64,000 bases of DNA from positions 114,102,214-114,166,213 of the forward strand of contig CM068830.1 of the NCBI GenBank assembly GCA_028554795.2, in the 5' to 3' direction. The DNA comes from Sinohyriopsis cumingii (lineage: Eukaryota > Mollusca > Bivalvia > Unionida > Unionidae). The translations under genes were made by a program, and so were the position numbers. Below, piece after piece: positions 25,926-54,537 of the stretch. The notes beneath the pieces are model-generated. The model had not been told where the DNA came from, made no database searches, and saw only the letters and a list, made by a program, of their open reading frames with translations. Position 1 is the first letter of the stretch. Each line of letters starts with the position of its first letter.

Positions 25926-25931
25926 ATTGCA

Positions 25932-26177: not shown

Positions 26178-26182
26178 CATGC

Positions 26183-34728: not shown

Positions 34729-35064
34729 AGTGGTGAATAGGGGCACCCTAGGGACAATGGGAATTACCATTACAGACCCCCCCCCCCGGGCAACTCTGGG
34801 GACTATGTAAATTTAACATGGAGAAAAATCGTGGGCAACTCTAGGGACAAGGGGAATTAGCATTACATGGGAATAGAGTTTGGGTCTGTCTAGGGACAAG
34901 GGAAATTGAACATGGTCAATAGAGTTTGGGTCTGTCTAGGGACAAGGGGAATTGAATATGGGATTTTTTTTAAAAAATTTTTTTTAAAAAAAAGGGGGTA
35001 GGCAATTGAAAGTCATTCTCTTTTCGAGAAACATGGGTGGCCCTGAAAAGGGCCTTTGGGTTTT
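34729..35064. repeat. Left terminal inverted repeat of element 3
   Basis: Reverse complement of 54201-54537. It contains sub-repeats built on TCTAGGGACAAGGGGAATT and AGAGTTTGGGTCTGTCTAGG. It also contains a homopolymer-rich patch near 34970-34996. Its inner end carries the histone-type stem-loop that terminates the outermost accessory gene (35116-35667). Confidence 0.95.
35039..35054 (-). terminator. Histone-type 3' stem-loop of cassette A
   Basis: On the minus strand it reads GGCCCTTTTCAGGGCC, with AAA just before and ACCCA just after, matching the metazoan replication-dependent histone mRNA consensus (six-pair stem, UUUC loop). Purine-rich CTCGAAAAGAGAATGAC follows about 10 nt later, where the U7 downstream element belongs. 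It lies 62 nt beyond the stop of the 35116-35667 gene. Confidence 0.75.
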
Positions 35065-35115
35065 TCTTCTTCTTCTAACTCCTTAACTTCTTCCACCATC
35101 CTCTTATTTTTTCCA

Positions 35116-35667
35116 TCATTCCTTTCTTCTTCTTTTCTGTTTCCGGCATCCAGTCCGGGTGACCATGGCTCGGAACTTCTCTTGGATTTTTATCCAGTTA
35201 GCATTCAGTTTTTCTAGTTCTTCCTTTTTCTTTCTATTTTCTTCTTCTTTTCTTTCCTTTGACCACTTTTCTTTCATCTTCTTGACCTCTTCGGTCAGCA
35301 CATTCCTCATTACTTCTTCCGCTTTCTTAAGCTTGACTAAGCCCCACTTCACAAAAGACCAATCTGTCCATTCTACAATGTCTTCTAAAAAACACCTTAC
35401 ACTCGTCACATAAACTATCGCTTCTTTCAACTTACCCACTTTCACATACCGTGGGTTAATTAAACCTCTGATTCTCTTCTCCTCATCCTCTATCATTTCT
35501 TTTACAATATCGATGGCTAAGTGGAGGCTGGTTACTTGTCTTGAGACGAAGTCTTTTGTCACTGCATGCCTCCATTCCTGTTCAAGCCTTTCTGCTACAT
35601 TCAATCCATCCACCATCCAATACCAACTTCCCATAAGGTTGTTGTACAAAGCTGAAGCTGCTGGCAT
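35116..35667 (-). CDS. Cassette A: helical accessory protein (element 3)
   Basis: The frame has 183 codons starting at the ATG at 35667 (MPAASALYNNLMGSWYW). The product is almost entirely helical. The first 100 residues are mixed amphipathic helices (WYWMVDGLNVAERLEQEW), and the C-terminal half is a charged coiled coil (MKEKWSKERKEEENRKKKEE) ending in RKQKRRRKE. No known domain. A TATA box (35719-35725) and a shared promoter module lie upstream, and a histone-type stem-loop lies downstream. It looks whole. Its role is unknown. Paralogy with cassettes B and C is in the regulatory DNA more than in the protein. Confidence 0.65.
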   Translation of the reverse strand: MPAASALYNNLMGSWYWMVDGLNVAERLEQEWRHAVTKDFVSRQVTSLHLAIDIVKEMIEDEEKRIRGLINPRYVKVGKLKEAIVYVTSVRCFLEDIVEWTDWSFVKWGLVKLKKAEEVMRNVLTEEVKKMKEKWSKERKEEENRKKKEELEKLNANWIKIQEKFRAMVTRTGCRKQKRRRKE

Positions 35668-35718
35668 CTTCTTGTTTGCTTATTCCGTAGAATGGGCTCC
35701 AATGGCAAACACTGTTAG

Positions 35719-35825
35719 TTTTATACTTAAAGCGCGGACGTGATTGAAAACATCCACCAAGACATAAAATTGATATTACCTAGATCATGACCAAACAACG
35801 CGCGGACGTGAAGGAAAACATCCCC
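35719..35825 (-). promoter_or_regulatory. Promoter of cassette A: TATA plus duplicated module
   Basis: On the minus strand a module ending ACGTCCGCGCTTT is followed within 4 bp by TATAAAA (35719-35725). Written on the plus strand the module core is GCGGACGTGAAGGAAAACAT, seen at 35733 (with a small variation) and again at 35801. The same module precedes cassettes B and C. The transcribed leader would be about 30 nt. Confidence 0.65.
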
Positions 35826-36056
35826 TACTTTCTCATTTCGTATAATAAAACCCAGACTATACTCTTCACATACGATAAGAAACAATAAATAAACCCATAA
35901 TCTACTATTCACACAAACTTACGTGAGCAGTTACAAACACAAACACAAACACACATACACTCACACTATGAAAAAAGAGTCAGTGTTTATATTCACACTA
36001 CTCTACCTACACACATTGGCAAATTGATGGTTATTTCTTTTCTAGAGTATTGGGGT

Positions 36057-36072
36057 AGCCCTGAAAAGGGCT
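36057..36072 (-). terminator. Histone-type 3' stem-loop of cassette B
   Basis: The minus strand reads AGCCCTTTTCAGGGCT, followed by ACCCCA and, about 10 nt later, CTCTAGAAAAGAAATAAC. It has the same loop and stem as cassette A except for the outermost pair. It lies about 94 nt beyond the gene's end. Confidence 0.7.
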
Positions 36073-36165
36073 GTTTGTTTTTAACTTCAGAGGCCCCTGG
36101 TTAATGGTGGCACCTTCCGGGTCTGGCACCACAGACACAACGTCTACTCCAATCATTAGTCCAAT

Positions 36166-36531
36166 TCACATGACTCGTTTGAAGAGCAGACGGGGGGTGA
36201 GTGGCTTCACTATCCCACTCCTCCGTTTGCGGAATAGTGAACACTTCTTCTTCCCTCTGTCTTCTTTGTCTTTGTCTTCGTTGTATTGTGGTTCAGCTAC
36301 AGGCTGGCGAGATGTCCTTGCCTCAGGTGTCACCTTGCACACAGGGTTCATCATAGGGTGACACCTGATCTCTCTCTTTCTTTCATTCTCTTCTTTCATT
36401 TTTCTCTCCTCCTCCTCCTGTGCTATTCACACTTCTTCCACAAGGGCCTCCGCAGTCAGCTCGTTCAGTAGGTATCTGGCATACTCCAGATGCATCTGAA
36501 GTTCCATCAATTTAGTCAGTCTGCTGCTCAT
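36166..36531 (-). pseudogene. Cassette B: accessory gene (element 3)
   Basis: It starts at the ATG at 36531 (MSSRLTKLMELQMHLEYAR), which resembles the start of cassette C (MCSKLAKLNEAYVNLHRVR). The two are paralogues in their first helix. Later parts are charged (KEENERKREIR, EDKDKEDRGKKK). TATA (36594-36599) and the shared module lie upstream, the stem-loop downstream. It is broken, with about one break. Function unknown. Confidence 0.5.
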
Positions 36532-36593
36532 TCTACTCCTTTTTTACTGTTGATCAATCAACAAGGGTAGCTAGACTGTCCAGCGAGTTTCAA

Positions 36594-36700
36594 TTTATAG
36601 TGAAAGTGCGGACGTGAAGGAAAACATCCCCCTAAAAACATAAAATTGATCTTACCTAGATCATGACCAAAGAAACAACGCGCGGACCTAAAAGAAACAC
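36594..36700 (-). promoter_or_regulatory. Promoter of cassette B: TATA plus duplicated module
   Basis: CTATAAATTG (minus strand) is preceded within 3 bp by the module (plus-strand core GCGGACGTGAAGGAAAACAT at 36608). A diverged second copy sits near 36680. The interval, including the phrase TACCTAGATCATGACCAAA, duplicates the region upstream of cassette A (35765-35800), as does the block 36860-37000 against 35920-36060. Whole cassettes have therefore been copied in tandem. Confidence 0.65.
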
Positions 36701-36999
36701 TCACTTTTTTATGCTACCCATTCCTATTCTAAAAAATCTTTTTCATTAATCACTTCAATAGACTATCCACATACGCAAAGCAATCCAATCTAACCCCAAA
36801 TCTACACCTCAAACACCAAAAAAAGACATCATTTTAATCTACTATCCACACCAACGTACGTGAGCACTTACAAACACACAATCATATACACAAACAAGTA
36901 CCCTCACATTTTAAAAAAAGAGTTAGTGTTTATATTCACACTACTCTGCCTACACACATTGGCAAATCAATCGTTATTTCTTTTCTTGAGTATTCGGGT

Positions 37000-37015
37000 A
37001 GCCCTGAAAAGGGCT
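37000..37015 (-). terminator. Histone-type 3' stem-loop of cassette C
   Basis: The minus strand reads AGCCCTTTTCAGGGCT, followed by ACCCGAA and, about 10 nt on, CTCAAGAAAAGAAATAACG. The purine block is close to the sea-urchin-type U7 target CAAGAAAGA. It lies 43 nt beyond the stop of cassette C. Confidence 0.72.
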
Positions 37016-37057
37016 GGGTTTTTTTTTGTTGGTTTTTTTGTTTGCTATGGCAATCTT

Positions 37058-37441
37058 TTAGTTTCTAAGAATGCGATGTCCTCTGAGGATAGACTTTCTG
37101 GCGATAGGTCTGCTTCTTCGGAAAGAGAAGAAGAACTCTTTGGTGTCGATACGACAATCGACAAAGCCTCTGTCAGGTTCAGGTTGCTGCTGCTGCTGCT
37201 GTTGTTGTTGTTGTTGTTGTTGTTGTTGCTGCTGCTGCTGCTGCTGTCTCTGAAGTCTGTACTTCTCTGTCCATTCTTCTTTCTCCCTGTTCACTTCTTC
37301 TCTGAAGAGCTCTTCTATCAGGTCTTCAGTGACTTTCAGCATTCTCACATTCTCTATCTCTTCTGGCTTCGGTATCAGACTGTGTCTGACCCTATGCAAA
37401 TTCACGTAGGCTTCGTTTAGCTTAGCTAGTTTGGAGCACAT
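37058..37441 (-). CDS. Cassette C: polyglutamine accessory protein (element 3)
   Basis: The start is the ATG at 37441 (MCSKLAKLNEAYVNLHRVR). An in-frame extension upstream would read through the promoter module and is rejected. The product is 127 residues: an N-terminal helix, a charged segment (ELFREEVNREKEEWTEKYR), then about 22 consecutive glutamines (CAG/CAA mixture at about 37188-37250), and an arginine-rich tail (FRRSRPIARKSILRGH). The tract should vary in length between copies. Polyglutamine near charged helices suggests a transcriptional or scaffold role, which is inference. It looks whole. Confidence 0.6.
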   Translation of the reverse strand: MCSKLAKLNEAYVNLHRVRHSLIPKPEEIENVRMLKVTEDLIEELFREEVNREKEEWTEKYRLQRQQQQQQQQQQQQQQQQQQQQQPEPDRGFVDCRIDTKEFFFSFRRSRPIARKSILRGHRILRN

Positions 37442-37496
37442 CTTCGTAGGAGGATGAGTCGACGATGGATGGTTAGACTGGAAACAACCCCGGTTC

Positions 37497-37530
37497 TTAA
37501 AGTCAAAGCGCGGACGTGAAGGAAAACATC
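37497..37530 (-). promoter_or_regulatory. Promoter module of cassette C
   Basis: The plus-strand core GCGGACGTGAAGGAAAACAT (37509 onward) lies directly upstream of an AT-rich CTTTAAGAA (minus strand) at the position where cassettes A and B have TATA. It is a third occurrence of the same module, in the same orientation and distance. Confidence 0.6.
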
Positions 37531-37659
37531 CTCCACACGGATTTCCAGTCGCAACGTTCAATGAGTGTCATGAGAGGGATAGTAAGAAGTCAAAGAGCAT
37601 CAATCAAACATTCGTATAGCTAAACAAAAGACAAAGGCATTTTTTTTCAAAACACATTT

Positions 37660-37665
37660 TTTATT
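37660..37665 (-). terminator. AATAAA polyadenylation signal behind the protease gene
   Basis: A canonical AATAAA on the minus strand about 160 nt beyond the protease stop. There is no histone-type hairpin here, so core and accessory genes use different 3' ends. Confidence 0.5.
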
Positions 37666-37823
37666 CAAAAATCACTTAACACTAACCAACAATAATCTAA
37701 CATTTTTAACAATAATCCAACATTATAACATCAAACATTTTTTTCTCAATTCACACTCTACTTTAAACAGGGCTGACAACGTTGTGAATGAAATTGTGAT
37801 TTCCACTGTTGGAAATCATTAGG

Positions 37824-38318
37824 TCATTGATGGACACTACGTTTCCTAGCTTGAGACAAAAGATAAGCATAATGGTCACAAAACCATCGATCTACTTTCA
37901 CATCGTTTCTAGAAGAAGAACGAGGATCACAATGAGTCACTAAATGTTCTAAGGAATAGCGCAGGCTGCGATGATGCAGAAAATACACACAGTACTGTCC
38001 ACACACCAAGGAATCTGTGCCTTGTAATTTCACATTATTGAATCGGGTGGTCTGAGCATTTCTTCGCATAAAGTCAGTGATATCGTCTTCCAAAGGGGGC
38101 AATCCGTACGAATCGAAATATTCCACACATCCTTCTTGAGAAAAGTAGACGGCTACCCAGTGGGTTCCTGGGAGATGACTGTCGTCCGTGTTGATGACAT
38201 AAGCTTGATGGTCTTGAGGTTTGCGATGAGGGAGTTCATCTTTAGCACAGACGACAGGATTCCAAGAAACCGTATACGAACTGTGGTTCAAAAGGTAATA
38301 AAGTTCCCAGGTATCCAT
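37824..38318 (-). CDS. PRO: Adenovirus-type cysteine protease, PRO (element 3)
   Basis: Capsid maturation protease of the adenain/Ulp1 fold. In the 164-residue product the catalytic set is complete and correctly spaced: His53 in GTHWVAV, Asp69 in YFDSYGL, Gln99 in KLQGTDS and Cys106 in LVCGQYC. Length is normal for Polinton PRO. It is the last core gene before the accessory cassettes. The ATG at 38318 has no competing upstream start. It looks whole. A shorter relative is in element 2. Confidence 0.93.
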   Translation of the reverse strand: MDTWELYYLLNHSSYTVSWNPVVCAKDELPHRKPQDHQAYVINTDDSHLPGTHWVAVYFSQEGCVEYFDSYGLPPLEDDITDFMRRNAQTTRFNNVKLQGTDSLVCGQYCVYFLHHRSLRYSLEHLVTHCDPRSSSRNDVKVDRWFCDHYAYLLSQARKRSVHQ

Positions 38319-38339
38319 TGTTTTGTGTGTTCTTTTTAT

Positions 38340-38825
38340 TCACAGGTAATAATAAGTCGTCAATTCGATCCTGACTTTTTGCTTGAAAATGTCTGACAAA
38401 TAACCGTTTCTTCGTTTCGTCTCCTCACTCTGATTCAGGAGAGCTTCGATACGATGGATCTCTTGAGTGGTTAATGGTGGACAAGAATGTTCACGCAAGT
38501 CTTTATACCATTGGTGCCACACGTCTTCGTCCGAGATGAGACTCCAAGCTTCGTCCAGATATTCGTCCAATTTTTGTTCTTGACTTAACATCAGGCATTT
38601 ATCGTGTTGAATTTGACTGGGATGATCGTTTTGACATCCATAGCAATTTTTCTTGATCAATTCCGTCATTTTTTCGGCCAAGTGTTTGACAAAACAGCAG
38701 ACTAAATGGGCTTCTTGTTCTGGCCATCTCGACTTCATCATGATCACTTCTTCTTCTTCCACAGTCTCCTCACATTTCATGTCCAAGGTTTCTCCACTAG
38801 GTAAAGAGGGATAACAGTCTTCCAT
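38340..38825 (-). CDS. Polinton hypothetical protein with CYGC...HPSQ motif (element 3)
   Basis: The frame has 161 codons. After an acidic start (EETVEEEEVIMMK) it has KNCYGCQNDHPSQIQHDKCLM, a Cys-Cys-His-Cys arrangement that I recall as recurring in Polinton open frames of invertebrates. A helical C-terminal region (LNQSEETKRRNGYLSDIF) follows. It lies between major capsid and protease genes, with 21 bp to the protease. A zinc-binding virion or assembly role is possible. It looks whole. Confidence 0.6.
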   Translation of the reverse strand: MEDCYPSLPSGETLDMKCEETVEEEEVIMMKSRWPEQEAHLVCCFVKHLAEKMTELIKKNCYGCQNDHPSQIQHDKCLMLSQEQKLDEYLDEAWSLISDEDVWHQWYKDLREHSCPPLTTQEIHRIEALLNQSEETKRRNGYLSDIFKQKVRIELTTYYYL

Positions 38826-38828
38826 GAC

Positions 38829-40144
38829 TTCTAGTAATCTAGAATGACTTCTCTCAAACTGTTGATTTCTATGGTATTATCGAATTCTGCATACAGGATG
38901 ACGTTCACCGTATTTGGTAGAGCATTCGCAAGCTGAATTTCCACTCGAATCTGGCCGGATTATATAGGGTGGATATGTCCCTCGTCGCTGCCTTGGTCAG
39001 GAGTGAAATCGAAAGCCCACAAAGCATAGCCTCCTTCATAATCTTCGTACGTAATGCCGTGACTGGTGTTGGTTCCTAACTGACCAGTGGCTTCGTACAG
39101 GGACAAGTACGATCTCAAGTAATTCTTCTGGGTAAAGTTAGGTTCGAAAGGTCGGGTACACAAGGTTTTGCCATCGCGACTGACTTCACTCTTGGACACA
39201 TTGTTATGCTTAAACTCAAAAGGATTTTCATTGTAGGCTCCGTTGAAGGCTGCATTGCTTACGATGCCAAGGATTAAACGTTTGGGTAGCTGTCCTTGGA
39301 ACAGATGATCTTCGATCATAGATCGCTGTCCAGTGGGAATCGTGAACGTTTTCACTTCCACGCGACGTATCGGATACTTGGCGGTCGTTCTGCTCAACGT
39401 TAGACTGATGTCGTTTCCCACTTTAGGTAACACTTCTACGCGACGCACGTAGAGCCTGGCTTCTTGAATGATGGTTTTGTAAGTGGCATCAGCAGCAGCC
39501 ATCAAATGGAAAGTGGCACTGCTGCGATTCAGTCTCAAGCGGATATCCACCCCGTTCAGCAAATACTTTTCTTGTAACCACATGTCCAAATGCAAACGAT
39601 CCATCAGTTCTAAACTACGACTTAGATGAATTTTCTTTCGTCGTTCTACAAATCCCGTTGAAATTGAAGCATTCCCAGCAAGTGTAATGCCGTTGAACTT
39701 AGTCGCTTGGTCAGGTTTCCATACCACGCAAGCATCCAGATGAGTGTTCTTAGCTTCTTTTCCGTACGTCAAGAGATTTTCCAGGTACGCTCGGTAAGGG
39801 TAAGTATCCATGCTGCTGCTGACCAGTTTGTTATTCAAGTACAAGTCCACTTCGCTAAACAAGGAATGCATGAAATTGTTGACGGGAGCTACTGCATCAT
39901 CATTGTCTAGGTTAGCGTTGGGTGGTTCGATCAGTTTCACTTTCAAGTACAAGTAACTGCTATTCAGATCGATGTAATCTTCGGGCTGTCCTTTGATTTC
40001 AAACTCGATGGGAGCGGAATCGGTCAATGAGGAGACGGGATGAAATTCCACCCACTGGGATTCTTGCATGGTGATCATGATGGGGGGCATGGCAAACATA
40101 TCCAGTTCCGACTTGGAACAAGCACATGACTCTCGGTGCATCAT
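38829..40144 (-). pseudogene. MCP: Major capsid protein, double jelly-roll (element 3)
   Basis: Hexon-like shell protein. The start is the ATG at 40144 (MMHRESCACSKSELDMFAMP), 14 bp after the penton-like stop. The first domain has VEFHPVSSLTDSAPIEFEIK and YIDLNSSYLYLKVKL, then PVNNFMHSLFSEVDLYLNNK. The second domain has HLDMWLQEKYLLNGVDIRLR and TFTIPTGQRSMIEDHLFQGQ with PKRLILGIVSNAAFNG. These segments are characteristic of Polinton capsid proteins. The gene ends at about 38829. It is broken, with about one break. Trimers would form the capsid faces. Confidence 0.85.
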
Positions 40145-40158
40145 TTTTTGTCTCTTTC

Positions 40159-41136
40159 TCAATAATCGAAAACGTCTAAGTCTCGAATGCTTCTTCTTTT
40201 CTTGGCCTTTCTAGCTTGAAGTCTGGTGAAAGGGTGTTTTCTTCGTCGTCTCTTTATGCCTTGTCCTTGCTGAATGCCTGACTCGGTAGCGTGCAGGGCA
40301 TTTATAGGTGTTTCTCGGTGGCCCAAAAGGTCTTTGCCCGTTTGCAGCAAGACATTTTTGCCTGCCCGCATGAAGGTTTCCACCTTCCTCTTCAGCGACC
40401 GTGGCAGAATCACTTTGAAAGGAATGACACGCAGTAACGGTACGGAGGTGTGTCGTACCACGTTGTACTCCACCACATCGGAATACACGAACATCGAATT
40501 CAGTCCTTGGTTCAGTTCTACCGGGGCACGAAATAACTTGCTAAAAGACTCGTTGTCGTAAACGATGGGTAATTCCTTTTTCTTGAGCATGGTCATTCTC
40601 ATGTTCATGTCTCCGCCCAACATGTCAAACAATTCAGGACAAAATAAAATGGACAGGATTTTACCCCCCTCAGGAAATTTCATCAGGAAGCGACGAGCTG
40701 TTTTGTGGTACTCCAGGGTGACACTTTTATTGACACTTTCCAAAGCTTTAAGAAACACGACATTAAACCTGGAGGCTATGGTGCTGACCAAATGTTGACC
40801 ACTAAAATAATAGCCTGGGGGAATGAACAAGTGATAGATAGACAACTTTTGATTTTTTGTGCCAGGGGTTTTCTTGTCATATTTGACATTCTTATCCAAC
40901 TCCTGTTGCAATTGCTCGTCATAAACTTCTACATCAAAAACATTTTGATTGGGAAGGACATTGAGGACTTGGGTCGGGTGAATGATTTCCACTAAAGCCA
41001 CTTCCCAATGGGCTTCGCGATCTAAGGGGATGGCCTGAGGTAATTTGGCCGTGTAACAGCACAACGTGTTGTGGGGAAACACCTCCATGGAACTGTCACT
41101 GGGTAAGGTTAAGTAAAATTGGTTTTGGTGACCCAT
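40159..41136 (-). CDS. mCP: Penton-like minor capsid protein (element 3)
   Basis: The frame has 325 codons. It opens NQFYLTLPSDSSMEVFPHNT, then HWEVALVEIIHP (first strands), LFIPPGYYFSGQHLVSTIASRF (turn plus helix) and PELFDMLGGD. This is the usual start of Polinton single jelly-roll pentons. The C-terminal part has VPLLRVIPFK and ends in a basic tail (QGIKRRRRKHPFTRLQARKAKKRR), a likely nuclear-localisation or DNA contact. The gene overlaps the upstream membrane-protein gene by 28 bp and precedes the capsid gene by 14 bp. It looks whole. Confidence 0.8.
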   Translation of the reverse strand: MGHQNQFYLTLPSDSSMEVFPHNTLCCYTAKLPQAIPLDREAHWEVALVEIIHPTQVLNVLPNQNVFDVEVYDEQLQQELDKNVKYDKKTPGTKNQKLSIYHLFIPPGYYFSGQHLVSTIASRFNVVFLKALESVNKSVTLEYHKTARRFLMKFPEGGKILSILFCPELFDMLGGDMNMRMTMLKKKELPIVYDNESFSKLFRAPVELNQGLNSMFVYSDVVEYNVVRHTSVPLLRVIPFKVILPRSLKRKVETFMRAGKNVLLQTGKDLLGHRETPINALHATESGIQQGQGIKRRRRKHPFTRLQARKAKKRRSIRDLDVFDY

Positions 41137-41555: not shown

Positions 41556-41560
41556 GATGG

Positions 41561-42667: not shown

Positions 42668-42694
42668 TTTTTATTTTTTGTGTTTGTTTGTGTG

Positions 42695-43315: not shown

Positions 43316-43363
43316 GGGTTGTCAGGGGTCGATTCTGAGATCTTGGGACTTCCGAGGGCCTTT

Positions 43364-46143: not shown

Positions 46144-46358
46144 TGAGGTGGTAAGTACTGATCGTAAAGAGTCCACAAAGAATCGGCTGGTAAACGAAAT
46201 CCCAGAAAACAAGTCACTAAGACACACACCACTTGTCGACCCAAATTGAATGGATACAGTTCTTGTAATAATCGATGGTAATGATCCACGGTTAGAATAT
46301 GGTCATTGAGTTCCTTCCACGGAATCTGTTCAATAATATGTGACATAATCCGTGGCAT
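46134..46358 (-). CDS. Hypothetical small protein (element 3)
   Basis: It has 74 residues starting MPRIMSHIIEQIPWKELNDH, with a hydrophobic helix-like middle (VVCVLVTCFLGFRL). Tight overlap with the following gene suggests a true gene or the first part of a larger one. Nothing recognised. Confidence 0.4.
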   Translation of the reverse strand: MPRIMSHIIEQIPWKELNDHILTVDHYHRLLQELYPFNLGRQVVCVLVTCFLGFRLPADSLWTLYDQYLPPQWP

Positions 46359-46413
46359 GGCAACTTATAGTGTCTTTGTTTCGGAAGCAATAAAGGTAAT
46401 TTCTAACTAAACA

Positions 46414-46821
46414 TTATCGTTCTCCAGTAGGGAATTTAAATGTTACATACTGTAACTGAAACGTCAGAGTTTGTCTAGATGTTTCGTCTTTTTCTAAGCA
46501 GATTCCATGTAACAAATGTTGGTAATCCTTTAACTCGTCTTCCTCAATACGTTGCAGTAAGTGAATCTTGAAGTAACCAAAATTACGAACGTCTAGTTTA
46601 TCATCATTCACAAACTGAAAGTGTTCAACAAGGTCTGAACACTGAAAAAATTTCTGACGAATCAGTCCTCTTATACCATTCAGGTACCAGTGGTTAAAGA
46701 TCTGGTGACGTAACGGATGCAACTGTTCTTTACGTTTGACTTGTATTTTGACCAGTTCTCGGTAAATCCTTTCTCTCAACTCCTCAGGCAAGCCCAAAAT
46801 GTTCTCTTGTAAAGTATCCAT
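46414..46821 (-). CDS. F-box-like paralogue 3 (element 3)
   Basis: The start is the ATG at 46821 (MDTLQENILGLPEELRERIY), 135 residues. The first 30 residues match an F-box-like helix pattern (LPEELRERIYRELVKIQVK), which in host and poxviral proteins binds Skp1 to recruit ubiquitin ligase. The remainder (HPLRHQIFNHWYLNGIRGLI and further helices) would bind a target. It is one of three tandem paralogues. It looks whole. Skp1 binding is an inference from the motif. Confidence 0.55.
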   Translation of the reverse strand: MDTLQENILGLPEELRERIYRELVKIQVKRKEQLHPLRHQIFNHWYLNGIRGLIRQKFFQCSDLVEHFQFVNDDKLDVRNFGYFKIHLLQRIEEDELKDYQHLLHGICLEKDETSRQTLTFQLQYVTFKFPTGER

Positions 46822-47056
46822 AAGTATATACACTGTTTTTGGAATCCTTGGGTGGTGGCCAATAGCCTCGTTTACCTTTATGCCTAATGTAATATCCACT
46901 CATAATCAGTCTTCTTATACTTTGGAACAAAGCATAATTTAAAAACGGTCGAATAACTTTGCGTTTGCGTTTCACTTGTATTTTGATCAGTTCTCGGTAA
47001 ATGCGTTCTCTCAACTCCACAGGCAAAGCACGAATGTTCTCTAGCAAAGTATCCAT
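46784..47056 (-). CDS. F-box-like paralogue 2 (element 3)
   Basis: The start is the ATG at 47056 (MDTLLENIRALPVELRERIY), 90 residues. The N-terminal motif is nearly identical to the other two copies, but the tail is shorter and different (SIRRLIMSGYYIRHKGKRGY). Its end overlaps the start of paralogue 3 by about 38 bp, so it may be a remnant. Confidence 0.45.
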   Translation of the reverse strand: MDTLLENIRALPVELRERIYRELIKIQVKRKRKVIRPFLNYALFQSIRRLIMSGYYIRHKGKRGYWPPPKDSKNSVYTYGYFTREHFGLA

Positions 47057-47068
47057 CAATAGGTCATA

Positions 47069-47527
47069 CTAAATCCTCTTTGGTCTGACACAAGAAATGT
47101 ACTCTTTGCACAAACATGGTTTTACTTCAGTGTCGAATTTAAATCGTTTAGTCACTAATCTACACATTACAATTCGTTCAGAAGTTTCCTCTTTCACCAA
47201 GTTGACATTTTGTTCAAGATGTTGGTAATTCGTTAACTCTTCCTCTGGAATTCGATGCAGTACGTTTACAATGATGTAGTAGATAGAATCGTCCATAACA
47301 AACCAATCCTTTTTAAAACTAGGGGATCGTTGATCAATGTCTGTCCAATGGAACACTTTCAATTGAATCAATCCTTGTATAGCCTTCAGGTACCAGTGGT
47401 TCAAACACCGGTGACGTAACGGATGCAATTGTTCTTTACGTTTCACTTGTATTTTGACCAGCTCTCGGTAAATGCGTTCTCTCAACTCCACAGGCAAAGC
47501 ACGAATGTTCTCTTGTAAAGTATCCAT
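47069..47527 (-). CDS. F-box-like paralogue 1 (element 3)
   Basis: The start is the ATG at 47527 (MDTLQENIRALPVELRERIY), 152 residues. It has the same F-box-like head followed by HPLRHRCLNHWYLKAIQGLI, clearly related to paralogue 3. The C-terminal part is divergent (EELTNYQHLEQNVNL). Head conservation with tail divergence fits adaptors that changed targets. It looks whole. Confidence 0.55.
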   Translation of the reverse strand: MDTLQENIRALPVELRERIYRELVKIQVKRKEQLHPLRHRCLNHWYLKAIQGLIQLKVFHWTDIDQRSPSFKKDWFVMDDSIYYIIVNVLHRIPEEELTNYQHLEQNVNLVKEETSERIVMCRLVTKRFKFDTEVKPCLCKEYISCVRPKRI

Positions 47528-47549
47528 GAACAGATTATGGTAAGTTACT

Positions 47550-48188
47550 TCAATGTCTCGGTCCCACTAAGGGTAAGTAATGACAATTCGGTGACCATCG
47601 AGCATGTTCTACGTAGGCCGAATCTTGCGGTTCCCAGTGGTGAAGTGACACACTGCAACTGAAGCACTTGACTTTATCTCCTTCGCCCAAGTAGAACAAT
47701 CCGGCTCTGGCTAATTCTTCGGGGGTCGGTCCTCCCAGATACTTAGGCCATTTTCCTTTGAACGATTGAAGACGATTTTCAAAGTCGCAGTATTCCGACA
47801 AACGCACAGGAAACGAATATTCGTTTTTCACAGGTTCGTTTCGATGAGGGTTGGGTGACATGAACAGGAGTTTGCTCAGGGCTGGATGACATCCGTAGTG
47901 GGATAGACGTGAAGGTGAACATTCCCCTTTAAAACGAAACCCAGTAAAATGTCCAAGAGGACCAGCGGCATCACTTTCGCATCCCTCAGGTTTGACACGC
48001 ACAGCATCACTTTCCATGATAGGGGTAGTGACACTAAAGTTCCCATGATACTTTACGGCATCGCTAAGGTCACAACGTACAGCATCGTACCCATCGCAAG
48101 GCTCACAATCGCATTCCACTTCAGAAGTCCCACACTTGAATTGTGCCTTTCTAAACAACTTGTTTTGTGTTTCTCTGAAAGTATTCAT
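47550..48188 (-). CDS. BIR-domain protein, IAP-like (element 3)
   Basis: The frame has 212 codons. Residues about 137-208 form a baculoviral IAP repeat: RLQSFKGKWPKYLGG, then zinc ligands Cys175, Cys178, His195 and Cys202 with the exact C-x2-C-x16-H-x6-C spacing (CFSCSVSLHHWEP, YVEHARWSPNCHYL). There is no RING domain. The N-terminal 110 residues are cysteine/aspartate-rich with no recognised fold. Viral BIR proteins block caspases and prolong infected-cell life. It sits between polymerase and F-box-like genes, the usual place for acquired host-interaction genes. It looks whole. Confidence 0.88.
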   Translation of the reverse strand: MNTFRETQNKLFRKAQFKCGTSEVECDCEPCDGYDAVRCDLSDAVKYHGNFSVTTPIMESDAVRVKPEGCESDAAGPLGHFTGFRFKGECSPSRLSHYGCHPALSKLLFMSPNPHRNEPVKNEYSFPVRLSEYCDFENRLQSFKGKWPKYLGGPTPEELARAGLFYLGEGDKVKCFSCSVSLHHWEPQDSAYVEHARWSPNCHYLPLVGPRH

Positions 48189-48220
48189 CTTGTTCGCTCG
48201 GTCTTGGTAGTCACAATGAA

Positions 48221-51200
48221 CTATCGATCTTGCCTAGGGTTCCTTTTTATATACAGACCAATACCGACGTGTCCATACGGTAAGGTGAAATGATTGGGAA
48301 GTCTCACTCGCTTCTGGTACACGATTTCATACACTTTTTCCAAGGGCCGACTGACGATGTGGTGAGTGGGTAAACGTACAATCTTGTTCGGTTGATAGGT
48401 GGTCACTTTAAAGTTTCCATCCACTCCCGATTGCAAGGCTTCTTTCAAGACCCCAAAGTTGACCACACGACTGGTACGATAATTCAGAGTCAGTCCTTTC
48501 ACTTTGCACGTCGTATGCACTTCTCCTTGTTTGTCCCGGTATTCGTAGCCGTAATTTTTGGGACCGCCACTGACGAAACTTAGAATCTTGTCGTCGGGAT
48601 GCTTGTCTGTCCAGGCTCCTAAACGGTCTCCTTCGATGTCAGGGTGCTGTTGACTCGGGTGATGGATGTAAATGCAACTGTCCGTATCAAAGTACAGGAC
48701 GCGTTCTTCTAACAGTTCTAAAGCTTCGTACAATTGTAAGCGAGCATGAGCTGTCACGTAAGCCGCAATGATGACATTTCCAAAAGGGTCGTCTTGTACA
48801 AAGTCCAGATATTCTTCGTAATTAACCAAGATCAAATCCTCTCGAACGACGTCCACGTGTTTCATGTATTTGGTTTTGTCGTGAATCATCTGGAAGTAGC
48901 GGGAAGGTTCTGTCAAATATTCCGTCTTGGGTAAACACGGTCGTTGTGCCATTTTATCCCACAAGCAATTTAACATCACTTTGGCAAACGATCGCCTGCC
49001 TTCGTTTTTCTCGATGTGGTCTAAAGAGATGCCTTCTTGTTCATAGTATTTCTCTTTGAATTGTATTTGGTCTTCGGGAGTGTGACACCAGGACGGATAG
49101 CCGCTGGCTTCTTGCTTCAGTTTCAAAAAGACATCCACGTAGTCGGCGAAAATGCCTTTCTGACTGGGATCACCCTTGTGGTATTGTTGTGTCTTGGGAA
49201 AGTGGCAAATTTCGTACACTTCTAACAGTTGGTATCCCATGTCCACAGCTTTGAACAATTCTACGCTGACCCAGGTTCCCGTCAAGGCACGTTCTTCCTG
49301 GGTGTGCTGACAAGGTTGGTCTTGGTTGCACGTTTCTGCACAAGTACGGCACAATGGAAACATTAGTTTGCCTTGACAATGGTGAGGTAAGACGGGATGG
49401 TATAGGTTCGTGGGAGGCAAAACTTTGCACTTGATCAAACCTTCGTATTATCGAATGTTTTACAGGTCGATGTGTTCCGTTAACAATTGCGGGTGCTCTA
49501 CAGGAAAGCGACAATATTTGCACACGTAGGGATACAGCGAACACACGTCCAAGTATTTGATTTCTTCTCCTTTCTCTTCGTCGGCTTGGTACAGCAAACA
49601 GGTGGCATTGGTCCTTCCTCCGTACAAACTATCCCTCGGGTTTAGGGGGTCCATCAGCTTCTAACTTTCCACAAGACGTTTAAACTCGGGATCGGTTTTC
49701 ATACGGTGTTCGTACTCGTGTTCCCACATTTCCACCACTTGGTATCCTTGCTGTTCTAACTTTAGGCGTCGCTGACAAGTGTCCTGGTACAAGTCTTCGA
49801 TGGTTCGTTGCAAAAACTGATTTTTAGTGCCACGGTCAGGGTAACAGACGGGACATCCGTGAAATAAGCAGCCGTTAAACTCGTACACGATCTTGGGGTT
49901 TTCTAAGTCCCAGCCATCGACCGAATACGTTCCGATGGTCTTTTCGCCCCCTCCGTTGCGGGCATGCTAAATCCACTTGTCTTCCTTGTCGCACAAGTAA
50001 TGTAACCAACGTAGGGCTTTGACCGAGTATTGACGTTTGACAAAGTTGGTTGTTTGAGGGCTGATGACAGCCACGGTCTTTTCAGGCATGAATCGTTGTC
50101 GATACACTAAGGAACACGCTTTGGCAATGGTGCAAGTTTCTTTCAAAGGATCGACCCCTCCGTGTTCCATGAACAGTTCTCGAAATTTTCCACAGCAACG
50201 CCGTAAAATGTCCACGTCGGAACGACAATAATTTAGCATTTCTTCCTGAAAGTCGAAAGGGTCCGAGGCGTGAGCCTGGTACCAAGCGTAGAAAGCTTCT
50301 CGTTGTTCGGTACGCATGTTGTCGGGTCGTAATAGTGAGCCTCAGGTAAATGGGGTAGAACGGCGTGTTGATTGGCTTCCGTATTGAAAAAGTGTGGAAA
50401 GTACCCTTTAGCCATTTCTGTCATTCCAAACGTTTTAGGCATTCGGCTCAAAGGCATGGCCAAACAGCTCAACGAATCTTTAAACTGTACTTGTCCCACT
50501 TGCATGAAAATGATTTTGGCTCCGTTCAAAGTCACTTTAGGACGCCCGGTGCCTTGTTCATTATAGTATCTCAAAAGAAACTGTCCATCGTATCCGGAGA
50601 AATTGTGAGCCATCACCGTGGCATGACGATGACAATCTCCGTAACGTTCGATGTCCTCTTGGCTCCACGTCTTGTGGACAGGGTCTAAAACCCATTGGGC
50701 AAAATCGGCTAACGTGTTCGGTCCCCGAAAGATTTTTTCACGCCCTCCAGGAATCTTGCTGCAGTGAGGGCAATGACTGAAGATAGGTTCTTCAATGCAC
50801 TTCTCGCACGCTCAATGAGCCACGCAGAAATTAGGAATGTGAATGCCGGTCTCTTGCATGCATTCGAAATCGAAAAAGATGAAATTGCCTTTCTTCTTGT
50901 GACCGTCCTCTTTCTCTGGTGGAGGTTGGTATTTTTGCACGTAACATTGGTGTTCCAAGTCCACGATGTGGTGACAAATGTGACATTTTTTCTTTCCTCG
51001 ACATACGTGTGCCTTGGCAGTATTGGTACATATGCCTTGTCCACACGTAGGGCACAATCTCAGGAGCTGACAAGCACATTTCTGCTGTGAACCTTGCGTC
51101 TTCAAATGTTGTTGGTAACAGGTAGGGCTGACAAACGTCCGCAGACAAGTTGAACAAGGCACTGGTCCTTCGCTCAGACAGGGTGGAGAGGCCAAACATC

Positions 51201-52268
51201 CTGGGCATTTCAATCCACAATGCTTGTGTTGCTCTCGATTATTAAAACCATAATCACATTTCTCACAGTAATAACTGTATCCCAGGAATGCAGTGATACT
51301 GGTAATGGTATCGAAATGGTCATCGTGATAATAAACATGAATGTATTTTCCGTCCTTAAAATCTTGGCCTCGAAACAACAGAGGCCCGCGCATTTCTTGA
51401 GGGTGCACTTTCAAGGTGTAGCGTGGAGCTAGGGCATCTTGCAATTTTTGCATCTCAGGAATGCCACAGGGTATGTCTTTGGACAGTCCGGCTTGTTGTA
51501 ACAGGAGTTCTGCGCCGTTTCGTTGTTTGGCTCGGTTCGATTTTCGAATGTTCTCCCAGGTTCTTTTCCATTCTACCGTGTCGTTCTTGTTGGCATAGGT
51601 TCGTCCCACCACGATGGCACGGGCTAAACACATCTGGTCATGAGGGTTGTTAATTCGGACGAGACTTGTTTTGGTGTTGCGAAGGTCGTCCACCAATAAC
51701 ATCTTTTTGCGTCCAGTCCCTTGAGGAAGAGAGACGTGGGTCATGTCCAGTGTGGCTTTACCATCGGTGATGTCAAACTGACCATTAGATTGTTGTACGT
51801 GTTGAATCTTGTCCATGACTTTGGAAGCAGTTAATTCTGCAGGGGTGCTAAACTCGATCCAAACAGGGGATTTCAAACCGTCGTGTTGTATGGAAAGTCT
51901 CAAGCGATCGTCTTCTTTGGGTTGACATTGTCGCTTGAGTGCGGTGAGCAAAGAATCCCACACCCCAGTGATAAACACTTCTGCTTTCTCTAACGGCACT
52001 TCAGCCTTGAAATCTTTAAACTTCACTGTGTATTTGTAAGCCGTGGTTCTAAATTTTCCGTCTCTCGAATGGAATAGTATTTTTCAGGGTTGACTAAGGG
52101 TGGTGAACTTGGTTTAGAGGGTTCGGATTCTGGTTCACTCATGTCTTCTTCAAAATCACTGGCATGAATTTGTGCCAAGACTTCAGCTCTGGTACGAGGC
52201 GATAGATCACGTTTCTGTCTCTTACTTTCTTCTTCTTCTTTCTTCTCGAATGAATAGGATCGTTTCAT
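48221..52268 (-). pseudogene. POLB: Protein-primed family B DNA polymerase (pPolB), element 3
   Basis: Same family as the gene at 4835-8932 and nearly identical over long blocks. The start is the ATG at 52268 (MKRSYSFEKKEEEES). Readable landmarks are the cysteine/histidine region (about 50930-51250), the exonuclease motif FFDFEC (near 50870), GYDGQF (near 50590), YCRSDVD (near 50225), palm motif A DVCSLYP (near 49535) and motif C YFDTDS (near 48690). It is broken, with about seven breaks, far more than any other gene of this element, even though the terminal repeats are well matched. A TATA (CTATAAATTA on the minus strand, near 52320) lies in the divergent promoter shared with the zinc-knuckle gene. 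Confidence 0.93.
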
Positions 52269-52309
52269 CTTGAGTGCAAAACGTCAAATGACTCAAAGTT
52301 TAAACACCA

Positions 52310-52355
52310 TAGACTAATTTATAGTCATGGCAGACCAGCGTATATAAAAGGGTGT
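52310..52355. promoter_or_regulatory. Divergent promoter: polymerase (left) and zinc-knuckle gene (right)
   Basis: Two TATA boxes in opposite orientation lie about 25 bp apart: CTATAAATTA read on the minus strand (52317-52326) and GTATATAAAAGG on the plus strand (52340-52351). Confidence 0.65.
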
Positions 52356-52403
52356 GTGTCTTGTCCTTTCACTATTCATTTCACTCTCAAGCTGAGCACA
52401 ACG

Positions 52404-52915
52404 ATGGAAGAGACTAGCCAAATCGAACGTTTCGTCAGAGCTTTGCGAGGAGTCATTAGAAAATTCTCTTCAGACCAGCCCACGGACTACTCTCCTTCCT
52501 TTCGTGATAAAAGTCAAGATACTTGCTATATCTGTCAGAAGAAAGGGCATTGGTCTTCAGAGTGTCCAGACCGTCAAACAAGAAAAAAAAAACAGGGACT
52601 AAAAAGGAAAAAAGTAAAGATACCTGTTATTATTGTCAAGAAAAAGGACATTGGTCTCCAGATTACCCAAAAAAGAAACAACAGGAGTCAGAAGAAAAGA
52701 GGAATTCTTCAGAAGAAGAGAGGGATTCTTCAGAGGAAGAAAGCAGACAGGTGAAGAAAAAGAAACAGGAGAAGAAAAGAAGAAGGGAAGAAAGCGAGGA
52801 GGAAGAAGAAGAAAAGAGTGTGACGGTGAAGAAATTAAAAAAAACAGAGAGACTAAACAAGGAGAAAGAAGAAATCAATGAACTTTTTATTAAAGTGTTG
52901 TGTTGTGAATTGTGA
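52404..52915 (+). pseudogene. CCHC zinc-knuckle protein with charged tail (element 3)
   Basis: The start is the ATG at 52404 (MEETSQIERFVRALRG), about 55 bp below the TATA box. Two zinc knuckles are visible: CYICQKKGHWSSEC (near 52526) and a second CYYCQEKGHWSP (near 52620). A serine/glutamate then lysine-rich tail follows (EESEEEEEEKSVTVKKLKK). CCHC knuckles bind single-stranded nucleic acid. An AATAAA follows at 52941. It is broken, with about one break. Confidence 0.65.
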
Positions 52916-52940
52916 ATTGGATTGTAGCAATGGATAAAAG

Positions 52941-52946
52941 AATAAA
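52941..52946 (+). terminator. AATAAA signal of the zinc-knuckle gene
   Basis: Canonical polyadenylation signal 26 nt after the stop of the plus-strand zinc-knuckle gene. No histone-type hairpin lies in this orientation. Confidence 0.55.
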
Positions 52947-53121
52947 TTAATGATATAAGGTAAGTGTCTTTGAGTTTTGATTTTAAAATAAGAACGTACA
53001 CTCACGCACTCATACAAAAACACGTACTATAAGGGGTAAAATGGGTTGGGTTTTTTTTTTTTGGGGGGGGGTTTGAGTTATTGGCAAATTGAAAGGCTAT
53101 CTCTTTTCGAGAGACGTGGGT

Positions 53122-53137
53122 GGCCCTGAAAAGGGCC
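53122..53137 (-). terminator. Histone-type 3' stem-loop of cassette D
   Basis: The minus strand reads GGCCCTTTTCAGGGCC, followed by ACCCA and then TCTCGAAAAGAGATAGCC. It lies 26 nt beyond the stop of the 53163-53735 gene. It is internal, not part of the terminal repeat, yet the match to the terminal-repeat version extends into the downstream purine element and TTTCAATT. Confidence 0.75.
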
Positions 53138-53162
53138 TTTTTATTTTGGTGCAGGGGTGAGT

Positions 53163-53735
53163 TCAAGCAATCAACTTTAACTGCCTTAAGCCTTTGCCAC
53201 GGCCAAGGCCTACTTCTGGACTGCGTAATGTTGATGATGATTGGGTTGAAATCACTAAGGGTGGTACGGTAGGCTTAGTCACAGGGTTAACGTGTTTAGC
53301 TCGGGAAGGTCGTATTCTCTTCGGTCGTAATAAAGAAGTCTGATACATTTGTTTCAGACTTCTTAACTCCGCTAAAATGTCCAACAGTACCGTGACCGTT
53401 TGATTTTCACCCTCTTGTTTCTTTGCTGCTACTTCTTCTTGCTGTTGATGCTGTTGTTTTTTTCTAACCTCTTCTTCTTGCTGCTGCTGTAGAAGAAAAG
53501 CTTGTTCCGCTTCCTTTTGTCGTTGTATAAATTTCTCCAATTCTTCTTTCTGTCTCTGTCTAAAATTCTCCACTTGCGGTAATGAAGAAGGTAACGAAGG
53601 TTCCGGAACAAATTCTTGCGAGGTAAGAAAATCCACAAAATCCCAATGTACCTCTTCTGAAAGTAAGTCCTGGTTCCCTTGGGCAGTCTCCCCTGCTGGT
53701 GCACCCCAATGGATCGTTTTCTGAGTTTCCGTCAT
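53163..53735 (-). CDS. Cassette D: glutamine-rich accessory protein (element 3)
   Basis: The frame has 190 codons starting MTETQKTIHWGAPAGETAQG. It has an acidic/hydrophobic start (EEVHWDFVDFLTSQEF), a glutamine/glutamate coiled coil (RQRQKEELEKFIQRQKEAEQ and onward), a leucine-rich helix (VLLDILAELRSLKQMYQ) and a basic C-terminus. TATA (TCTATATAGA near 53783) lies upstream. It looks whole. Function unknown. The glutamine-rich coil resembles cassette C in composition only. Confidence 0.6.
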   Translation of the reverse strand: MTETQKTIHWGAPAGETAQGNQDLLSEEVHWDFVDFLTSQEFVPEPSLPSSLPQVENFRQRQKEELEKFIQRQKEAEQAFLLQQQQEEEVRKKQQHQQQEEVAAKKQEGENQTVTVLLDILAELRSLKQMYQTSLLRPKRIRPSRAKHVNPVTKPTVPPLVISTQSSSTLRSPEVGLGRGKGLRQLKLIA

Positions 53736-53901
53736 GTTGAATCACTGTCGCATAGATTGACTGCACACAAGCGCTAGCGAATCTATATAGACCACGTGAC
53801 GTCACAGACTACTCTCTTCGGATTGGATGCGGGGTGACTGAATTTTGTAACGCATGTTTGGATTGGTGAATGAACTCAATCCGTTTCAATCCTTCCTCTA
53901 C

Positions 53902-53909
53902 CTATAAAT
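53902..53909 (+). promoter_or_regulatory. TATA box of cassette E
   Basis: CTATAAATA sits about 50 bp upstream of the ATG at 53955. It faces away from the cassette D promoter, so D and E are divergent. Confidence 0.6.
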
Positions 53910-53954
53910 AAGCGCAGTTCACTGCATTGATTCACCTGTTCTCGTCGCTTCAAG

Positions 53955-54185
53955 ATGTGGACCACAGTCGAATCATCCACCCTTGTGTCTTCCATGATGT
54001 TTAGGACGGACATGCTCATGTATGTCCGGTCCAAGTGGACCATTGTCGACAAGTCAGACACCAGTCTGTGGATACGAAGAGTGTACGTAGAAAGACAAGG
54101 TTGCCTCAAGAGGACACTAATTTATGGCCCTCGAGTAAGACGCAGCTTGAGGACAAGAAGATGCCACAAATGCCCTTTATGTTAA
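53955..54185 (+). CDS. Cassette E: small accessory protein (element 3)
   Basis: It has 76 residues from the ATG at 53955 (MWTTVESSTLVSSMMFRTDM), ending in a basic cysteine-containing tail (RVRRSLRTRRCHKCPLC). It is the only accessory cassette on the plus strand and runs toward the right terminal repeat. The histone-type stem-loop there ends its mRNA 25 nt after the stop. No family recognised. It looks whole. Confidence 0.55.
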   Translation: MWTTVESSTLVSSMMFRTDMLMYVRSKWTIVDKSDTSLWIRRVYVERQGCLKRTLIYGPRVRRSLRTRRCHKCPLC

Positions 54186-54200
54186 TGGATACATTAACAT

Positions 54201-54537
54201 AAACGCAAAGGCCCTTTTCAGGGCCACCCATATTTCTCGAAAAGAGAATGACTTTCAATTGCCTACCCCCTTTTTTTAAAAAAATTTTATAAAAAAAAAA
54301 CAAAAATCCCAAATTCAATTCCCCTTGTGCCTAGACAGACCCAAACTCTATTGACCATGTTCAATTTCCCTTGTCCCTAGACAGACCCAAACTCTATTCC
54401 CATGTAATGCTAATTCCCCATGGCCCTAGAGTTGCCCACGATGTTTCTCCATGTTAAATTTACATAGTCCATAGAGTTGCCCGGGGGGGTCTGGAATGGT
54501 AATTCCCATTGTCCCTAGGGTGCCCCTATTCACTACT
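54201..54537. repeat. Right terminal inverted repeat of element 3
   Basis: Inverted copy of 34729-35064 with about a dozen base differences and homopolymer-length changes (for example 7 against 11 C's near the tip). It is followed by the target duplication GATTGT (54538-54543). Confidence 0.95.
54210..54225 (+). terminator. Histone-type 3' stem-loop of cassette E
   Basis: The plus strand reads GGCCCTTTTCAGGGCC, preceded by AAA and followed by ACCCA. TTTCTCGAAAAGAGAATGAC then occupies the downstream-element position. It sits in the inner edge of the terminal repeat, so the outermost genes at both element ends (A and E) use the same signal. Confidence 0.78.

Follow-up and report, generated by a model that had tools for sequence, protein, structure and literature searches.

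Putative histone-type mRNA 3' ends on accessory genes of a Polinton family in the bivalve Sinohyriopsis cumingii

The Polinton and its accessory genes

The window, a 64-kb stretch of the S. cumingii genome analysed as a whole, contains a Polinton/Maverick element of 19.8 kb with both its terminal inverted repeats (TIRs; 92.4% identity between 34729-35063 and 54201-54537 by blastn) and a 6-bp target duplication. Its retroviral-type integrase (rve, E 2.2e-14) and A32-like ATPase (Pox_A32, E 6.7e-6) both score above the Pfam cut-offs, while the protease gene matches Peptidase_C5 below the cut-off (E 0.0038). A putative protein-primed PolB was identified by visual inspection of the reading frames and through its 92% match to the stretch at 4995-8944. 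The gene of the putative double jelly-roll capsid protein was assigned by its relatives only (Mercenaria, Ostrea, Crassostrea, Saccostrea); the protein has no Pfam match, and its structure model is of low confidence and too poor for a fold search. The element, its accessory genes and two genes that serve as comparison are as follows.

34723..34728, no strand: target-site duplication GATTGT, left copy, read from the sequence
34729..54537, no strand: Polinton/Maverick element, delimited by its TIRs (blastn), with integrase, A32-like ATPase, protease-like and PolB genes
34729..35063, no strand: left TIR, containing hairpin 1 and its purine block
35116..35667, minus: acc1, 183 aa, 3 database relatives (46-51%)
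35732..35754, minus: first of two copies, before acc1, of the shared upstream motif
35800..35822, minus: second of two copies, before acc1, of the shared upstream motif
36166..36531, minus: acc2, reading frame with an internal stop; start similar to that of acc3 on visual inspection
36606..36628, minus: shared upstream motif before acc2
37058..37441, minus: acc3, 127 aa, with a polyglutamine tract; aligns in part with acc1 (24%)
37508..37530, minus: shared upstream motif before acc3
37824..38318, minus: adenovirus-protease-like gene, last of the inward gene block; hairpin absent, AATAAA at +159
52404..52754, plus: zinc-knuckle gene (PF00098, E 1.1e-6), control without hairpin
53163..53735, minus: acc4, 190 aa, with a basic PKRIRPSRAK stretch; 19 database relatives
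53955..54185, plus: acc5, 76 aa, facing outward beside the right TIR; genomic copies elsewhere 70-96% identical
54201..54537, no strand: right TIR, containing hairpin 5 and its purine block
54538..54543, no strand: target-site duplication GATTGT, right copy, read from the sequence

A Pfam search at E 0.1 found no histone domain in acc1, acc3, acc4 or acc5. The relatives of acc1 end in a C-terminal tail that cannot be aligned with the end of the acc1 frame. The structure model of acc4 is one long helix (55-135) with low-confidence ends.

Stem-loops after the accessory genes

Five hairpins stand behind these genes, each followed by a purine block read from the sequence.

35018..35023, minus: AAAGAG purine core, 15 nt past stem 1
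35039..35054, minus: histone-type stem-loop 1, after acc1; RF00032 38.6 bits, E 9.3e-8, match 35014-35059
36035..36040, minus: AAAGAA purine block, 16 nt past stem 2
36057..36072, minus: histone-type stem-loop 2, after acc2; RF00032 29.8 bits, E 1.7e-4, below gathering, match 36033-36077; A-U outer pair
36978..36983, minus: AAAGAA purine block, 16 nt past stem 3
37000..37015, minus: histone-type stem-loop 3, after acc3; RF00032 25.1 bits, E 0.01, below gathering, match 36976-37020; A-U outer pair
53101..53106, minus: AAAGAG purine core, 15 nt past stem 4
53122..53137, minus: histone-type stem-loop 4, after acc4; RF00032 37.1 bits, match 53097-53142
54210..54225, plus: histone-type stem-loop 5, after acc5; RF00032 38.3 bits, match 54205-54250
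54241..54246, plus: AAAGAG purine core, 15 nt past stem 5

The initial annotation had reported hairpins at 35039, 36057, 37000 and 53122 (minus strand) and at 54210 (plus strand), and the pattern RGCCCTTTTCAGGGCY is indeed matched exactly at all five; a sixth match, at 5018, carries 3 mismatches. In 100 dinucleotide shuffles, matches with no more than 3 mismatches averaged 0.75, and six were never reached. The Rfam Histone3 covariance model (RF00032) matched all five hairpins, three of them above its gathering score of 34 bits, and found nothing else in the 64-kb window up to E 1. A chance origin of the hairpins is ruled out by the shuffles, the E-values of the model and the genome-wide recurrence described below. 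Each hairpin is predicted to fold into a 6-bp stem with a 4-nt loop (UUUC). Three stems have G-C as their outer pair and two have A-U, with no case unpaired; covariation over the five is too weak to weigh, 52 of 500 shuffles reaching the score. The stem, loop and ACCCA-like flank claimed earlier hold as to fold and model; a true ACCCA follows three stems, and ACCCC and ACCCG follow the other two. All five claimed signals are present, but they amount to about three independent cases, because hairpins 35039 and 54210 are TIR copies and 36057 and 37000 are tandem duplicates.

The purine block had been said to lie where the U7 target belongs. Consistent with this, AAAGAG or AAAGAA starts 15-16 nt past the stem in 5/5 hairpins, as judged against the mammalian U7 core only. 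In the mouse system, as described in PMC7026596, an AAAGAG core pairs with CUCUUU of U7 and the cut comes after ACCCA.

Placement relative to genes is equally regular. Stems start at +62 (acc1), +43 (acc3), +26 (acc4) and +25 (acc5) from the stop; for acc2, whose frame is interrupted, a manual count puts the stem about 93 nt past the last stop. All are in sense, and together these values bear out the location given earlier as 25-95 nt past accessory-gene stops in the sense orientation only. Of all strand positions in the element, 9.9% lie in sense within 100 nt past the stop of an ORF of at least 75 aa (5.6% with the gene list used here). The suggested enrichment within 100 nt past stops, checked within this element, is thus 5/5 against 9.9% of positions; such placement is unlikely by chance, with a product of about 0.001 for three independent cases.

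One part of the earlier description fared less well, namely that core genes carry AATAAA instead of a hairpin. AATAAA or ATTAAA occurs within 400 nt at 7/17 gene ends without a hairpin and at 2/4 with one (acc2 being left out of the table), and acc4 itself has AATAAA at +18, just 5' of its stem, so that the contrast is weak by these counts. An ATTAAA lies at +220 in acc3; neither motif is found within 400 nt of acc1 or acc5.

Recurrence in the host genome and in relatives

We then turn to the host genome (2.9 Gb), in which 75 matches to RF00032 were scored out of 589472 first-look candidates, the window's own hairpins not being among them. All 75 exceed the gathering score and each marks the 3' end of a Polinton accessory gene, in a list that is incomplete and allows no inference of fewer hairpins at histone genes. 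The gene end at most 300 nt upstream, in sense, is that of acc5 in 29, acc4 in 23 and acc1 in 12; the other 11 share a further left-end accessory gene or its remains, each with a TIR downstream (11/11). ACCCA is present in 74/75 scored matches, and AAAGAG or AAAGAA at exactly 15 nt in 72/75 (absent in 3; 2.1% at random positions, with a wider window). Across 14 control genomes, RF00032 gave no match above the cut-off and one below. Two doubts attached to the initial annotation, that hairpins might be missing from other copies or randomly placed relative to stops, did not hold: dozens of copies carry the hairpin, and every scored match sits at a Polinton gene end.

Gene ends that had not been picked by their own hairpin agree, although they still come from elements picked by another one: a hairpin that differs at no more than 2 of 19 nt is present at 26/26 acc4, 24/24 acc5 and 1/1 acc1 ends, against 6-10 mismatches in antisense controls. 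It is likewise present at 8/8 acc3 ends, where the A-U subtype is kept save for changes in three. No hairpin follows the zinc-knuckle gene in 37 copies or the protease gene in 2, and 2.5-kb stretches around the acc3 copies (8 protease ends included) hold no further one. Mutated hairpins occur in several genomic copies.

A more distant comparison comes from P0135, a database relative of acc4 with 65% identity, which reads past the usual stop into PISGPPTSLEKR. The acc4 3' flank in the window encodes the counterpart PFSGPPTSLEKR, and 0/2000 shuffles score as high. The signals are gene-specific, sense-oriented, nearly fixed in spacing, and recurrent both in copies and in a diverged relative.

The more distant Polinton fragments L001-L004 (26-45% capsid-protein identity) have no RF00032 match and no homologs of acc1, acc3, acc4 or acc5; L001 and L004 include only a small part of the relevant ends, and all four count as weak negatives only. 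The core gene order of the element recurs in L001-L003, a likeness to bivalve Polinton/Maverick elements. The window's second Polinton, of another family, also has no match. Hairpin scans of IMG/VR returned 0, 3 and 1 contigs, and among the four loci RF00032 matched only L007 (19.6 bits, E 0.7; none in L008); no relatives of the capsid protein or acc4 were found there. A family-specific model (R1) added nothing new, its next best match being in L002 (E 0.63).

Interpretation and alternatives

We conclude, with a probability of roughly 0.8, that this Polinton family bears genuine histone-type 3' processing signals on defined accessory genes, from which host SLBP and U7 would make ends without poly(A). 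The histone-type identity proposed initially is upheld by the covariance model, flank, purine-block spacing, orientation, recurrence in copies and a relative, and absence after other genes. As read from sequence, the gene set is acc1, acc2, acc3, acc4 and acc5, and elsewhere a further left-end gene. The signals resemble the metazoan replication-dependent histone 3' end in their 6-bp stem, UUUC loop, ACCCA-like flank and AAAGAG some 15 nt on, and the genes resemble histone genes in their short 3' UTRs and, where intact, uninterrupted reading frames. In contrast to histone genes, the bearers are non-histone Polinton genes; in animals, this type of 3' end is described as one that only replication-dependent histone mRNAs have (PMC6303110).

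Related observations are few. A scan of polinton-like viruses and virophages counted six histone 3' UTR stem-loops (PMC12220804); the stem-loop is of the same kind, but the section gives a bare count, with no position, purine block or function, and for 1107 cryptophyte elements it names tRNAs and group I introns only. An RF00032 match reported in SARS-CoV-2 has 14.7 bits (PMC7786107); the window's matches score higher, at 25-39 bits, and are suitably placed. The histone stem-loop has also served as a reporter end (PMC4744033).

The signals might have a dual use, acting as histone signals in S phase and giving way to ordinary polyadenylation otherwise, as in some histone genes; overlapping poly(A) and histone signals are described for certain human ones (PMC9756948). 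The AATAAA of acc4 and the ATTAAA of acc3 would fit such an arrangement, which we nevertheless consider unlikely, given that acc1 and acc5 lack both motifs within 400 nt and that the P0135 spacer can encode neither.

It is less likely still that the module is a passive inheritance, a histone 3' end acquired in a single event, multiplied through gene duplication and TIR homogenisation, and now without function. The TIR copies and tandem duplicates, two hairpins each, are of the kind it predicts, and among 26 acc4 copies conservation of the hairpin (0.974 majority) does not exceed that of the spacer (0.987); no hairpin-specific constraint is visible there because the copies are too young. However, the module stands behind genes without evident common coding sequence (acc1, acc4, acc5), it is kept in the 65%-identity relative though the spacer diverged, its two paired subtypes mostly stay at their own genes (A-U at acc3, G-C at others), and 72 of the 75 scored matches have the purine block at one constant distance.

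Hairpins also mark transcript ends in Mimiviridae, where hairpin-forming palindromes are cleavage and polyadenylation sites (PMC4402537). A virus-type machinery of this sort is very improbable here: that system is described as cytoplasmic and virus-encoded (PMC4402537), whereas a Pfam scan of 15 element proteins revealed no poly(A) polymerase, RNA polymerase or hairpin nuclease, and sequence, flanks and purine block fit the histone model, at accessory genes only. That the palindrome is a DNA signal for replication, packaging or excision, as two hairpins at inner TIR edges might suggest, is scarcely credible when three of the five lie outside the TIRs, all are in sense past a stop with flank and purine block conserved on one side, and the zinc-knuckle and protease ends have none.

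Under the histone-type reading, host RNA polymerase II would transcribe the accessory genes, host SLBP would bind the stem-loop and U7 snRNP the purine block, and CPSF73 would cut after ACCCA, leaving an mRNA without a poly(A) tail. Such mRNAs would build up and be translated chiefly during S phase, the time at which SLBP is available, and would be degraded as that phase ends, while structural and zinc-knuckle genes, which have no signal, presumably use ordinary polyadenylation. The outcome would be an accessory set, probably early or regulatory, restricted to DNA-replicating cells. Because the signal lies at the inner edge of both TIRs, each element end would have an outward-facing 3' end.

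A virus-like element may in this way have placed its accessory genes under host DNA-replication control. We lean, with less assurance, towards a wider proposal: an animal Polinton lineage with a two-class 3'-end code, in which an SLBP/U7-processed, non-polyadenylated, S-phase accessory regulon, partly sharing an upstream motif, is set against polyadenylated structural genes, so that the provirus would sense the host's replication state. As a group, these would be the first non-histone mRNAs known from animals or viruses to have a histone 3' end, and the signal would lie within terminal repeats as well. If true, the occurrence on several unlike genes and in dozens of copies would mean that the SLBP/U7 pathway is open to takeover, the genes would offer natural non-histone substrates for asking what the signal alone confers, and the arrangement would point to a way in which an integrated DNA virus could time its gene activity by the replication of the host.

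Five hairpins in the main Polinton

The main Polinton of the window carries terminal inverted repeats (TIRs) of ~335 bp that are 92% identical, with a perfect GATTGT duplication at both flanks. It codes for an integrase of retroviral type that bears a chromodomain, and for an A32-like ATPase, a zinc-knuckle protein, an adenovirus-protease-like protein (Pfam score under the cut-off) and a putative capsid protein. The closest relatives of the capsid protein are 80-85% identical, and no Pfam model match or usable predicted fold was found in its support. Relatives with an organism name are mostly from bivalves, which points to a bivalve as the probable host. The element is partly decayed: the capsid C-terminus (shorter than in its relatives), PolB (identified by eye) and acc2 are interrupted, and the tail of acc1 differs from that of its relatives. 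Two small genes of 135 and 152 aa, akin to each other (DNA 83% identical over 199 nt), stand in tandem at 46414-47543.

Features of the window
4995-8944, PolB-like stretch, 92% identical to 48183-52119 of the main Polinton
11139-26181, second Polinton, belonging to a different family; TIRs 98% identical
34729-54537, main Polinton, 19.8 kb, holding all five hairpins
35039, minus strand, hairpin 1, after accessory gene acc1
36057, minus strand, hairpin 2, after acc2
37000, minus strand, hairpin 3, after acc3
53122, minus strand, hairpin 4, after acc4
54210, plus strand, hairpin 5, after acc5
35732-37530, upstream 23-nt motif GATGTTTTCCTTCACGTCCGCGC, four copies: two before acc1, one each before acc2 and acc3
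47550-48188, BIR-domain (inhibitor of apoptosis) gene in the main Polinton, Pfam E 1.5e-22

All five hairpins were found where the initial annotation had placed them, and their claimed fit to the metazoan histone consensus was upheld: the Rfam model Histone3 (RF00032) scored 5/5, three of them over the curated cut-off, and neither strand of the 64 kb gave a further hit at E ≤ 1. Each is predicted to fold into a 6-bp/4-nt stem-loop with unpaired flanks. Three hairpins have G-C as the outer stem pair and the other two A-U, so that this position is paired in all five; because five sequences are too few and the observed covariation score was reached in 52 of 500 shuffles, we make no claim of covariation. 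ACCC follows every stem, and a purine core starts 15-16 nt past the stem, reading AAAGAG (hairpins 1, 4 and 5) or AAAGAA (2 and 3). Hairpins 1 and 5 lie at the inner edge of the left and right TIR, each for an outward-running gene (acc1, acc5), hairpins 2 and 3 are part of a tandem duplication with acc2 and acc3 (150 nt at 85%), and hairpin 4 ends acc4. Since the 23-nt motif is confined to acc1, acc2 and acc3, being absent before acc4 and acc5 at ≤3 mismatches, the left-end accessory genes have a common 5' module besides the 3' module; the motif is possibly a shared promoter element.

By its sequence, the PolB-like stretch is another, truncated copy of the main element's family; to its left (1-4521) lie nested repeats in direct and inverted orientation, several hundred bases long and 88-94% identical. 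The second Polinton encodes a double jelly-roll capsid protein, an integrase and an A32-like ATPase, and its gene at 13184-14116 has long internal tandem repeats (blastn offsets ~63 nt).

Matches across the genome

The genome (2.90 Gb, 1138 contigs) was searched with the RF00032 covariance model, and the best 75 of 589472 first-look candidates were scored. All 75 passed the cut-off; the window's own five hairpins are absent from this set, so it is incomplete and the matches number at least 75. Control genomes gave a match below the cut-off in 1/14 and above it in 0/14.

In the 3 kb examined around each match, 64 of the 75 had a tblastn match to acc5 (29), acc4 (23) or acc1 (12), 45-99% identical, in sense orientation and ending ≤300 nt upstream. 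The remaining 11 are mutually related upstream of the hairpin and have in common a further gene or its remains, with a frame that stops 15-24 nt before the stem in 8/11 and a Polinton TIR downstream in 11/11. Thus 75/75 scored matches are Polinton accessory gene ends. As the scoring covered top candidates only, this does not mean that histone genes lack the signal. In 53/75, TIR sequence is present no more than 400 nt further on, and ACCCA follows the stem in 74/75. A purine core begins exactly 15 nt past the stem in 72/75 (AAAGAG 60, AAAGAA 12; neither in 3); the random-position rate of the two is 2.1%, counted over a wider window of 12-24 nt.

The further left-end gene or its remains, with the same hairpin (L009, L013, L014, L028, L030, L032, L033, L049, L052, L063 and L081), encodes ~130 aa where long. 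Most intact frames end in KIRSWWRNRRN, a tail similar to the KIKRWWNKG of acc1 relatives.

Gene ends not picked by their own hairpin

To offset the choice of the 75 by hairpin score, we counted, at the same loci, gene ends not chosen by their own hairpin. Ends were counted if the match came within 20 aa of the C-terminus with ≥150 nt downstream, others being left out, and were positive if a 19-nt stem-loop with ≤2 mismatches lay within 200 nt downstream. The sample is still a selected one at the level of whole elements. Absence of the hairpins from other copies was looked for and not borne out: they are kept at 26/26 acc4, 24/24 acc5 and 1/1 acc1 ends, and ten further 2.5-kb stretches had an A-U type hairpin just past the stop in 8/8 acc3 copies (63-97% identical), changed in the stem in two and in the loop in one. 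The stem-loop was found at 0/37 zinc-knuckle gene ends (best 9-12 mismatches) and 0/2 protease gene ends, antisense controls had 6-10 mismatches, and the eight acc3 stretches, which include protease ends, held no second hairpin at ≤4 mismatches. Among the ten stretches, L090 had neither acc3 nor hairpin, and L093 contains a neighboring right end that bears the hairpins of acc4 and acc5.

Several observations weigh against the histone-type reading. In 26 acc4 copies, the mean majority is 0.974 for the hairpin, 0.987 for the spacer and 0.94 for the coding-sequence end; the hairpin is conserved no more than the spacer and only slightly more than the coding end, so young copies by themselves cannot reveal selection on it. 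Four distant Polinton fragments (L001-L004) and the second Polinton gave no Histone3 match, and none of the four accessory genes searched had a homolog in those fragments. The fragments come from assemblies labeled bacterial MAGs, two with titles naming Escarpia and Bathymodiolus, and are probably animal contamination. The initial annotation's contrast, with AATAAA at hairpin-less genes instead, failed in counts: a poly(A) signal occurs at 7/17 hairpin-less vs 2/4 hairpin ends, and in acc4 AATAAA stands immediately 5' of the stem.

A diverged relative offers evidence as DNA read through its protein sequence. The protein collection contains 19 relatives of acc4, of which P0135 (65% identity; 1150-nt contig) continues beyond the usual stop into ...QWPISGPPTSLEKRYYVNCQFQ, and the window's acc4 3' flank, translated in frame past the stop, reads ...KRPFSGPPTSLEKR followed by a stop. 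The stem-loop, ACCCA and purine block align, whereas the stop-to-hairpin stretch does not; the match score was reached by 0/2000 shuffled tails. Ten successive codons (S-G-P-P-T-S-L-E-K-R) are compatible with the window DNA with no forced change, and the stem-loop holds one forced base difference (F to I, loop-closing position).

Likeness to histone mRNA 3' ends

In mouse, as described in PMC7026596, the stem-loop is bound by SLBP, the U7 snRNA base-pairs through its CUCUUU with AAAGAG, the core of the HDE, and CPSF73 cuts after ACCCA, between stem-loop and HDE. The Polinton modules resemble these ends in having the same sequence parts in the same order at near-constant spacing. In the bivalve Lucina pectinata, according to PMC6210712, histone mRNAs carry the stem-loop, and some of them have purine-rich elements. 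The 3' stem-loop is treated as unique to histone mRNAs in PMC6303110 and PMC12775136, and the literature matches listed included no account of histone stem-loops on Polinton, adintovirus or Maverick genes. The long helix of acc4 in a predicted model, together with a basic nuclear-signal-like stretch judged by eye, makes a regulatory role plausible. The simplest inference from the sequence is that the accessory-gene mRNAs would be host-made, tail-less S-phase messages.
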